Below are positions 9,659 to 11,796 of a stretch of DNA of 21,175 nucleotides, piece after piece; within the stretch, counting starts at the first letter, position 1, and each line of letters begins with the position of its first letter. The stretch lies in assembly GCA_009699645.1 (NCBI GenBank), contig WLNU01000008.1, positions 1 through 21,175 on the forward strand, given 5' to 3'. The DNA comes from Actinomycetota bacterium. GTDB taxonomy: Bacteria; Actinomycetota; Actinomycetes; Nanopelagicales; Nanopelagicaceae. Both the position numbers and the translations under genes were made by a program. The notes under the pieces are model-generated. The model worked only from the letters and a program-made list of their open reading frames with translations, ran no database searches and was not told the origin of the DNA.

Positions 9659-11098
9659 ATGCGTAGAGCAAAAATAGTCTGCACAATGGGCCCTGCCGTT
9701 GAATCTGCCGAGAAGGTGAAGGCGCTCATTGAGGCGGGAATGAACATGGCTCGATTGAATCTCTCTCACGGCTCATATGAAGAGCACCAAGTGAGATTTG
9801 ATCAAGTACGTGCAGCGGCAAAAGAGGCAGGGCGCCCCGTTGCAATCCTTGTTGATTTACAAGGGCCAAAGATTCGTCTGGCTAGATTTGTTAACGGCCC
9901 ACACGAATTGGCGCGGGGAGATATTTTTACTATTACTACCGATGAAGTTGATGGTACAAAAGATCGTGTCGGCACCACATACATGGGACTACCAGGAGAT
10001 TGCAAGGCCGGAGATCTCATATTGATCGATGATGGAAAAGTAACAGTGCAGGTTATAGAAGTTAAGGGCAACGATGTGATTACTAAGGTCATCGAACCAG
10101 GGGCAGTAAGTAATAACAAAGGAATAAACCTTCCAGGGGTAGCCGTCTCTGTTCCTGCTATGTCAGAGAAAGATATTGAAGATCTGCGTTGGGGACTTAG
10201 GGCAGGTGCTGATTTCATCGCACTTTCATTTGTGAGAAATGCCGCCGATATTAAAGATGTTCATGCAATTATGGATGAAGAAGGTATTCGCATTCCTGTA
10301 ATTGCCAAGATTGAAAAACCTCAAGCCGTTGAAAATATCGCTGAAATTGTCGATGCATTTGATGGAATCATGGTTGCACGTGGTGATTTAGGTGTTGAAC
10401 TTCCCATAGAAGATGTGCCTCTTGTGCAAAAACTCTGCGTCGAACTTGCGCGCGATATGGCAAAGCCCGTCATTGTTGCAACACAGATGCTTGATTCAAT
10501 GATCACTAACTCACGTCCAACGCGCGCAGAAGCCACAGACTGCGCCAATGCCGTCATTGATGGGGCAGATGCATTAATGCTCTCGGGTGAGACAAGTATT
10601 GGTGAATTTCCGATTGAGGCCGTACAAACTATGGCCCGCATTATTCAAAAGACTGAGGAGGGTGGTCTCGATCGAATCCGTCCTATCCGGACAGCCCCTC
10701 GCACTAAGGGCGGCGCTATTACAAAGGCGGCAACAGAGGTCGGTGCAATCGTGGACGCTGAGTATTTGGTTGCATTTACGCAAAGCGGTGACTCGGCACG
10801 TCGCATGTCACGACTGCGCTCTCCCATCCCAATTCTTGCAATGACCCCTGAGGTTGGAACATACAATCGTTTATCTCTTTCATGGGGAGTTGAATCGATG
10901 CTTACTCCCATCGTTGGTGCAACCGATGAGATGGTGAAGTTGGTCGACACAGTTTTAATCGACTCTGGTAGAGCAGATATTGGAGATAACGTGATGATCG
11001 TTGCTGGATCTCCTCCAGGAATACCTGGCTCGACTAATGCGATGCGCGTTCACCGTGTGGGCGATGCCGTTGGTGGCGCTGCTCCTGCCTACCGCTAA
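9659..11098 (+). CDS. pyk: Pyruvate kinase
   Basis: Pyruvate kinase converts phosphoenolpyruvate and ADP to pyruvate and ATP, the last step of glycolysis. The 479 residues match the bacterial family. They open with RRAKIVCTMGPA (2-13) and the substrate-binding MARLNLSHGS (30-39). The signature VIAKIEKPQAVENI (214-227) carries catalytic Lys217 and metal ligand Glu219. MVARGDLGVELP (238-249) provides the second metal ligand, Asp243. KPVIVATQMLDSM and DGADALMLSGETS (about 269-313) complete the active site. The C-terminal allosteric domain (about 350-475) is present. ATG 9659 is nine bases after the gltD stop. From memory, pyk follows gltBD in other actinobacteria too. A tRNA begins 14 bases after its stop, so the pyk transcript probably runs into it. 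Confidence 0.97.
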   Translation: MRRAKIVCTMGPAVESAEKVKALIEAGMNMARLNLSHGSYEEHQVRFDQVRAAAKEAGRPVAILVDLQGPKIRLARFVNGPHELARGDIFTITTDEVDGTKDRVGTTYMGLPGDCKAGDLILIDDGKVTVQVIEVKGNDVITKVIEPGAVSNNKGINLPGVAVSVPAMSEKDIEDLRWGLRAGADFIALSFVRNAADIKDVHAIMDEEGIRIPVIAKIEKPQAVENIAEIVDAFDGIMVARGDLGVELPIEDVPLVQKLCVELARDMAKPVIVATQMLDSMITNSRPTRAEATDCANAVIDGADALMLSGETSIGEFPIEAVQTMARIIQKTEEGGLDRIRPIRTAPRTKGGAITKAATEVGAIVDAEYLVAFTQSGDSARRMSRLRSPIPILAMTPEVGTYNRLSLSWGVESMLTPIVGATDEMVKLVDTVLIDSGRADIGDNVMIVAGSPPGIPGSTNAMRVHRVGDAVGGAAPAYR

Positions 11099-11112: not shown

Positions 11113-11185
11113 GCCTCGGTACTCCAACGGTAGAGAGGGCAGTCTCAAACACTGCATAGTGTCGGTTCGAATCCGACTCGGGGCA
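11113..11185 (+). tRNA. tRNA-Leu-like (anticodon CAA) with a short variable loop
   Basis: A full cloverleaf of 73 nt can be drawn. The acceptor stem GCCTCGG (11113-11119) pairs with TCGGGGC (11178-11184), with two G-U pairs. The D stem CTC (11122-11124) pairs with GAG (11135-11137), and its loop holds GG at 11129-11130 followed by TAGA. The anticodon stem GCAGT/ACTGC (11139-11143, 11151-11155) is perfect, with loop CTCAAAC and anticodon CAA at 11146-11148. The T arm GTCGG/CCGAC (11161-11177) has loop TTCGAAT. The discriminator is A11185, and no CCA is encoded. The CAA anticodon, A73 and the three-pair D stem with GGTAGA all point to leucine. However, bacterial tRNA-Leu is class II with a long variable arm, and here only ATAGT (11156-11160) lies between the stems. 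It is either an unusual functional tRNA or a decayed copy. Confidence 0.8.
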
Positions 11186-11223
11186 CGTTAGTAAAAATTT
11201 ATGTTCCGAAAGGATAATCTGTA

Positions 11224-11796
11224 GTGATTCGTATTCTCGTTGCCGAAGATGAAGCGCTCATCCGCATGGATCTGGTCGAGATGCTACAAGGTGCTGGCTA
11301 TGAAGTTGTTGCCGAGGCTAGTAATGGCCAAGAGGCAGTTGATCTAGCCAATCTTCACAAACCAGATATTGCAATTCTAGATGTGAAGATGCCGGTGATG
11401 GATGGCATTTCGGCGGCGGAGAAAATAATTAATATAGCTCCAGTTTTAATGCTAACTGCATTTTCACAAAAGGAGCTCGTTGACCGTGCACGCGATGCTG
11501 GAGTGATGGCCTATGTCGTTAAACCATTTACTATCACTGATTTAGTACCCGCTATCGAAATTGCAATGAGTAGGCATCTACAGATGCGCTCACTTGCCGA
11601 TGAAGTGGCCGACTTACATGAGCGCCTTGAAACACGAAAGCTAATCGATCGGGCAAAAGGCATCTTGATGAAGGCACTTAACTTGTCCGAGCCTGAAGCA
11701 TTTTCCTGGATTCAACGCGCGGCTATGGATCGCCGAATGAGCATGAAGGCCGTGGCCCAAGCCGTCATAAACCCTGAGGCAGTCCCGCTCGACTAA
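11224..11796 (+). CDS. pdtaR: ANTAR-domain response regulator, PdtaR-like RNA-binding antiterminator
   Basis: This 190-residue protein has an N-terminal receiver domain (about 2-120) and a C-terminal ANTAR RNA-binding domain (about 128-184). Receiver residues are complete: acidic pocket E8/D9, phospho-acceptor D53 in ILDVKMP, T78 and K100 in VVKPF. The linking coiled helix is LADEVADLHERLETRKLI, followed by the ANTAR core DRAKGILMKALNLSEPEAF and a terminal three-helix segment. The architecture matches M. tuberculosis PdtaR (Rv1626), which is phosphorylated by the kinase PdtaS and prevents termination or changes translation by binding paired hairpins in target RNAs. No kinase gene is in the window, as usual for this orphan arrangement. 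GTG 11224 is chosen because AAGGA (11210-11214) stands nine bases upstream and it gives the canonical N-terminus. It follows the tRNA by 38 bases. Confidence 0.93.
   Translation: MIRILVAEDEALIRMDLVEMLQGAGYEVVAEASNGQEAVDLANLHKPDIAILDVKMPVMDGISAAEKIINIAPVLMLTAFSQKELVDRARDAGVMAYVVKPFTITDLVPAIEIAMSRHLQMRSLADEVADLHERLETRKLIDRAKGILMKALNLSEPEAFSWIQRAAMDRRMSMKAVAQAVINPEAVPLD

Follow-up and report, generated by a model that had tools for sequence, protein, structure and literature searches.

The window analysed here, a 21,175-nucleotide stretch of actinobacterial DNA, encodes what we are confident is a working tRNA-Leu that reads UUG, folds as a class I tRNA and is most likely charged by the ordinary leucyl-tRNA synthetase (LeuRS), and that more likely descends from a lineage of short leucine tRNAs than from a long one by deletion of its arm. 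Expression, charging and the route of origin are what we infer from comparative sequence data. Reviews treat tRNA-Leu as a class II tRNA with a long variable arm (PMC7609411, PMC9976931), a view contradicted in an actinobacterial order and, as sampled, in many Actinomycetes and phages. Set against the textbooks the gene is unusual, within its own lineage it is ordinary, and it is very probably functional. A first-pass annotation, made from the letters of the window, had listed a functional class-I-shaped tRNA-Leu among several options, and this option is supported by structure, conservation and covariation, by the lack of a second UUR-reading tRNA among the Rfam hits of three complete related genomes and by the leucine meaning of UUR codons.

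The gene occupies positions 11113–11185 of the forward strand, is 73 nt long and carries the anticodon CAA. ARAGORN calls tRNA-Leu(CAA) at 11113–11186, and the Rfam tRNA model RF00005 matches 11113–11185 over its full length (model positions 1–71 of 71) at 52.1 bits, where the gathering score is 29. All seven pairs of the acceptor stem GCCUCGG/UCGGGGC are formed, two of them as the wobbles U4.G69 and G7.U66. The D stem consists of three pairs (CUC/GAG) with the loop CAACGGUAGA; the anticodon stem GCAGU/ACUGC, which carries the loop CUCAAAC, and the T stem GUCGG/CCGAC are both perfect. The discriminator is A73, and CCA is not encoded in the gene. The variable loop, AUAGU, has 5 nt, where a class II tRNA has a variable arm of at least 10 nt. 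The window sequence thus bears out the perfect anticodon and T stems, the leucine-like D arm of three pairs and the variable loop of only ATAGT that had been proposed at the outset, and ARAGORN and Rfam join it in confirming the 73-nt cloverleaf with its CAA anticodon and A discriminator. The leucine identity set given in PMC9976931 (A73, A14, A15-U48, G18G19 and a Leu-type D loop) is present.

The tRNA lies between two protein-coding genes on the same, forward strand. The stop codon of an open reading frame at 9659–11098 is found 14 nt upstream; following the first-pass annotation, we take this frame to be pyk, putatively encoding pyruvate kinase. The gene that starts 38 nt downstream, at 11224–11796, encodes a pdtaR-like response regulator with an ANTAR domain, assigned from its open reading frame, its orthologous loci and its homologues, which carry PF00072 and PF03861 and one of which is named PdtaR in its source record. 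The spacer (11186–11223, forward strand) holds a Shine-Dalgarno-like GAAAGGA.

Relatives of this locus were collected in a scan with the pdtaR-like protein, from which the best 80 of 562 loci were used: a close group of 52 (L001–L052) and an outgroup of 28. The close group was assigned to the order Ca. Nanopelagicales, of which Ca. Planktophila is a member, by similarity and by the recurrence in a sample of the order of 41 of the 50 group genomes that were searched for a short UAA tRNA; its record titles vary between Ca. Planktophila, Ca. Nanopelagicales and 'Actinobacteria', and some are evidently mislabelled (e.g., Bifidobacterium breve). The pyk frame has a tblastn match in 52/52 group loci and 22/28 outgroup loci. 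A 73-nt tRNA-Leu(CAA) stands before pdtaR in all 52 group loci according to ARAGORN, which reports one more base, so that the short form is indeed kept at the pyk-pdtaR junction, a point that the first-pass annotation had advised checking. Seven distinct sequences occur among the 52, and their anticodon stems (GCAGU/ACUGC, GCGGA/UCCGC, ACGGU/ACCGU and GCGGU/ACCGC) vary by compensating changes. In 42 of these loci pdtaR begins, with ATG or GTG, exactly one nucleotide after A73, in frame.

Conservation extends through the order of strain IMCC19121, in which 192 of 201 sampled genomes have a match, one of them weak (G185); among the matches listed, all but one span bases 1–73. The nine genomes in this sample that gave no match to the short CAA tRNA are likely explained by genome incompleteness. 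We also aligned 20 short leucine tRNAs, 11 bacterial and nine from phages. Standard pairs fill 99.3% of the pair cells, changes on both sides are seen at 14 of 20 pairs, and for four of five covariation measures none of 500 shuffles scored as high as the alignment, with 3 of 500 doing so for the fifth.

The other leucine tRNAs of the group were read in three complete genomes. All 38 Rfam tRNA hits of IMCC19121 (G001) were inspected: the CAA and UAA tRNAs are class I, the UAG and GAG tRNAs class II. For the two other complete genomes, G002 and G003, reading covered all hits of 79 nt or longer, and the six in each are tRNAs for Ser, Tyr, Leu(UAG) or Leu(GAG). The CAA tRNAs of both genomes and the UAA tRNA of G002 read as short, with matches 73 nt long, and the UAA tRNA of G003 is known from its 73-base match length alone. 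None of the 38 G001 hits, and none of the hits of at least 79 nt in G002 and G003, is a long UUR tRNA. A normal class II tRNA-Leu(CAA) elsewhere in the genome, for which the first-pass annotation had advised looking, was therefore missing from the Rfam hits read in the three complete relatives: the only tRNAs found there for UUR codons are short, and those with UAG and GAG anticodons keep the long arm. More widely, a search for the short UAA tRNA covered 50 of the 52 group genomes and gave matches in 40, in 35 of them over all 73 bases; 29 of 30 UAA loci read are short tRNA-Leu(UAA) genes, and the remaining one is cut by a contig end. From these relatives we infer that the source genome of the window has a short UAA tRNA and no long UUR tRNA. 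Apart from leucine, G002 and G003 each hold an extra low-scoring tRNA with the anticodon ACC (Gly), at G002:C1:331800-331871 and G003:C1:266455-266526, an anticodon unusual for bacteria, and odd Val tRNAs occur at G001:C1:813860 (UAC) and G002:C1:476496 (AAC).

The amino acid that UUG stands for was examined in codon alignments of pdtaR (53 group and 28 outgroup sequences) and pyk (53 and 22), taking columns with at least 90% agreement in the outgroup. UUG falls on conserved leucine in 270/308 cells, UUA in 233/266 and CUN in 1004/1115; in pyk, 25 of 183 UUG cells face a conserved valine. On the evidence of these alignments, UUG means leucine in the genomes of the group, and recoding of UUG finds no support in them. 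One LeuRS locus exceeds the cut-off in each of six genomes searched, and a second LeuRS dedicated to the short tRNAs was not found in these six.

Sequence positions that matter for charging were counted in 40 distinct chromosomal short leucine tRNAs and 30 class II leucine tRNAs, one of the latter from a phage. U8, A9, C12-G23, C13, A14, A15, A22, U48 and C2-G71 are present in 40/40 short tRNAs and A73 in 39/40. The class II set shares A14, A15 and U48 (29 each), A22 (28) and A73 (30), and has G9 in 29, G12-C23 in 29 and G13 in 25, a class II core that is counted here and follows no published definition; at these same core positions all 40 short tRNAs have A9, C12-G23 and C13 instead. ARAGORN added one base at the 5' end of some IMG/VR rows, which shifts a few viral cells and leaves the chromosomal rows unaffected. 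Judged by these counts, the identity positions are common to both classes, and what changes together with the arm is a set of core positions. One short tRNA-Leu(UAA) (L246, genome G588) has the discriminator G instead of A, against leucine identity.

Leucylation in Escherichia coli needs A73, A15-U48, G18G19 and A20a and not the arm, whose sequence and folding are uncorrelated with charging, according to the account in PMC9976931. Because E. coli leucylation does not need the arm and the identity bases are kept, charging of the short tRNA-Leu(CAA) by a normal LeuRS is plausible. The ordinary bacterial LeuRS would most likely rely on features that are independent of the arm, namely A73, A14, A15-U48, G18G19 and a D loop of the Leu type. 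Seryl-tRNA synthetase (SerRS) is described as needing a long arm (PMC7609411), and C2-G71 is listed as an antideterminant against it (PMC9976931); C2-G71 together with the missing arm would keep SerRS off. Within the group, the short CAA tRNA and an equally short UAA tRNA would then be the UUR readers, as the three complete genomes suggest, with the UAG and GAG tRNAs staying class II.

Three other accounts of the gene were weighed against a decoding tRNA-Leu. The missing long arm and the two acceptor wobbles could point to a decaying copy or an assembly error, with a normal tRNA-Leu(CAA) doing the work elsewhere, yet the same length recurs in 52/52 loci, the match in 192/201 genomes and the stem changes compensate, and no long UUR tRNA appeared among the hits read in the complete genomes. 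The first-pass suggestion of a decaying copy is contradicted by these data, and an assembly deletion is untenable because the short tRNA is present in many separate assemblies; on conservation and covariation both are ruled out for the window tRNA, and the chance that either applies is practically negligible. That the tRNA decodes UUG with a different amino acid, by recoding or mistranslation, might be suspected from its body, which at fixed positions is on average nearer to the group's tRNA-Phe (mean identity 0.62) and tRNA-Met (0.60) than to class II tRNA-Leu (0.56). Against this stand the leucine identity bases, the placement of UUG on conserved leucines at a rate much like that of CUN, and the fact that all 52 viral contigs sharing a 16-base stretch of the D arm have another leucine anticodon there. 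The mischarged tRNA also envisaged in the first-pass annotation is accordingly disfavoured, with UUR codons on conserved leucines and the identity bases intact, and we regard any other amino acid as extremely improbable. The third account gives the gene a main role outside translation, for example in the control of pdtaR by RNA processing where tRNA and mRNA meet. Where pdtaR begins one nucleotide after the tRNA, the pdtaR mRNA would have almost no leader once the tRNA 3' end is processed, and the in-frame spacing in 42 of 52 relatives speaks for such a role; the window, with its 38-nt spacer, and 10 of the 52 loci do not have this spacing, however. Moreover, the short CAA tRNA is the only one found in three complete genomes and should therefore also decode. 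Such a main role is highly improbable in our estimation, and the gene is best read as a decoding tRNA-Leu.

Short leucine tRNAs also occur beyond the order. A covariance model of short leucine tRNAs (R1) scored its short test sequences at 60.4–94.1 bits, the best other tRNA at 58.3 bits and class II tRNA-Leu at up to 53.6 bits, a thin margin at the low end. All of 394 genomes of the class matched at 1e-9, a threshold that is unspecific; the best E-value was 3.1e-17 or better in 362 and above 1e-16 in 32. The 27 best-scoring loci of this search were read and are all short tRNA-Leu(UAA), seven of them from genomes of 4.4–8.5 Mb. In the outgroup, 24 of 28 genomes have a hit at 1e-16, and the 25 loci read are all short (22 UAA, two CAA and one CAG). 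Arthrobacter genomes have a short UAA and a long CAA tRNA; Kineococcus siccus and Streptomyces sp. HNM0574 have a short CAA tRNA beside class II UAA, UAG, CAG and GAG tRNAs. A short tRNA-Leu(UAA) thus appears to be common in Actinomycetes by these searches. Where read, chromosomal short leucine tRNAs serve the UUR box, and in the group of the window they serve both UUR codons; the exception is Kineosporia mesophila (L247, genome G570), where a short tRNA-Leu(CAG) accompanies a short UAA tRNA; no other short CUN tRNA was among the chromosomal ones read. The first-pass annotator knew of no such change in free-living bacteria; the short form itself is real, but it is not peculiar to the window gene, with short UAA tRNAs elsewhere in Actinomycetes. 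A blastn search of 5,426 E. coli genomes with the short UAA form gave no match at E 0.1.

Matches among tRNA-Leu genes of phages were obtained for both the window tRNA and the UAA tRNA. Two phage searches returned 425 records (E up to 1) and 90 records, which were read in part and may include other tRNAs. In each of 16 phage regions read, one or more tRNA-Leu genes have a variable loop of 5–7 nt; these regions were chosen as hits to short tRNAs, and 16/16 is thus no estimate of frequency. Their hosts are Streptomyces, Rhodococcus, Corynebacterium, Pseudomonas, Acinetobacter, Erwinia, Salmonella, Lactobacillus, Synechococcus and Prochlorococcus. Within its D arm the window tRNA has the 16-mer TCCAACGGTAGAGAGG, an exact copy of which is present in 52 IMG/VR contigs; these are predicted viral and may include host sequence, and all 52 encode a short tRNA-Leu at that place, 50 with the anticodon UAG and two with UAA. 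Two IMG/VR contigs are rich in tRNA genes, with 36 ARAGORN tRNAs in L330 (3900-11071) and 33 in L285. All four leucine tRNAs of L330 are short and its Ser and Tyr tRNAs measure 85–90 nt, a pattern that fits a LeuRS not needing the arm and a SerRS needing it.

The window tRNA would belong to this short tRNA-Leu lineage, carried on actinobacterial chromosomes, mostly with UAA and sometimes with CAA, and in phages. At fixed positions the mean identity of the group CAA tRNAs is 0.71 both to group UAA tRNAs and to the short CAA tRNAs of the outgroup, 0.69 to the outgroup's short UAA tRNAs and 0.63 to phage short tRNAs, above the values for tRNA-Phe, tRNA-Met and class II tRNA-Leu given earlier. A tRNA tree rests on 66 columns and leaves 73 of 142 inner branches open, too few columns to settle the origin. 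One fork (support 97) unites all seven group CAA tRNAs with four of 11 group UAA, 12 viral, two phage and one outgroup short CAA tRNA, and class II CAA tRNAs form a separate fork (99). Other short UAA tRNAs stand beside class II tRNA-Leu or among other class I tRNAs, and because they are scattered in this way, the tree does not show a single origin of all short leucine tRNAs.

Two other routes to the window tRNA compete with descent from the short lineage. The old class II tRNA-Leu(CAA) of the locus may have lost its arm in place and adjusted its core later: a class II CAA tRNA is found near pdtaR in 26 of 28 outgroup loci (a short one in the other two), and the place is thus conserved, mostly on the other strand, however. 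Positions 9, 12-23 and 13 match those of short UAA tRNAs, the identity to group UAA tRNAs exceeds that to class II tRNA-Leu, and the tree places the group CAA tRNAs with UAA, viral and phage rows, apart from the class II CAA fork, all of which makes loss in place a possible though unlikely route. Of the initial statement that a long variable arm is missing, the absence of the arm holds; the window tRNA is probably not just a long-armed tRNA minus its arm, however, as positions 9, 12-23 and 13 differ as a set and a poorly resolved tree groups it with short UAA and viral tRNAs instead of the long CAA tRNA found near pdtaR in other actinobacteria. Alternatively, the window tRNA may be a remoulded class I tRNA that once served a different amino acid, as its closeness to tRNA-Phe and tRNA-Met and the tree, in which some short actinobacterial leucine tRNAs fall among class I tRNAs of other kinds, might suggest; the three-pair D stem with its AA..GGYAGA loop, A15-U48 and C2-G71 are tRNA-Leu features, however, and we find remoulding distinctly unlikely. 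A change of anticodon within the short lineage, or gene replacement from it, would be more likely here than deletion of the arm from a long CAA tRNA.

Comparison with known leucine tRNAs places the window type among them. It shares with bacterial class II tRNA-Leu (such as the CAA tRNAs near pdtaR in Arthrobacter, Kineosporia and Streptomyces) a leucine anticodon, A73, A14, A15-U48, the D-loop GG, a three-pair D stem and mostly a GGYAGA loop, and differs from it in its 5-nt variable loop, against 11–17 nt, and in A9, C12-G23 and C13, against G9, G12-C23 and mostly G13. Animal mitochondrial tRNA-Leu(UUR) likewise reads UUR without a long arm and is recognised by its LeuRS, as PMC9976931 relates; here, in contrast, the setting is a bacterium with perfect stems and an ordinary bacterial LeuRS, whose relatives keep the arm on UAG and GAG tRNAs. 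The short tRNA-Leu(UAA) of Actinomycetes, read in Arthrobacter, Kineosporia and Nocardia, has the same core signature and mostly a 5-nt loop but the anticodon UAA, the CAA tRNA being class II in outgroup genomes where both were read. Short tRNA-Leu genes of Synechococcus phage S-CREM1, Rhodococcus phage Trina and Streptomyces phage Alone3 share the architecture and the D-loop and variable-loop pattern; they are found on phage genomes, with anticodons UAA, CAA and UAG. In mycobacteria, PMC6582537 mentions in passing one tRNA-Leu(TAG) whose variable loop is short and which accompanies a normal isoacceptor; compared by description only, it is an extra gene in a tRNA cluster and reads CUN. The passage in PMC11541572 that names Mycobacterium tuberculosis tRNA-Leu 2, 3 and 5 as long-armed suggests by its wording that the others are short. 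We found no description of short tRNA-Leu as a general bacterial type in the open-access literature. Such genes already bear the name tRNA-Leu in ARAGORN output and in several phage records, and their odd shape is easily overlooked. They offer test material for LeuRS/SerRS discrimination, for change of tRNA structural class and for exchange of tRNA genes between phages and hosts.

A wider scenario is speculative and, taken as a whole, rather unlikely. The short leucine lineage would circulate between phages and actinobacterial chromosomes, swapping leucine anticodons, and in Nanopelagicales would have replaced class II tRNAs and taken the whole UUR box; it may be favoured by escape from nucleases that recognise or cut long arms, an idea raised because a defence system reported in PMC13096335 cleaves the variable loop of tRNA-Tyr; and, at this locus, the pdtaR mRNA would owe its 5' end to 3' maturation of the tRNA.

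Mobile elements yielded some further observations. A plasmid search returned 11 records, and the three hits outside Actinomycetota were all read: those on a Thermomicrobium and a Legionella plasmid proved to be tRNA-Lys and tRNA-Trp, not short tRNA-Leu, and the third, on plasmid pCENA543c of Nostoc sp. CENA543 (L336 54-531), is a tRNA array with two short tRNA-Leu genes, CAA and UAG. The Mycobacterium abscessus prophage records MW584199.1 and MW584176.1 begin with bases that match positions 29–73 of the short tRNA-Leu(UAA), which suggests an attachment site in a short tRNA-Leu.
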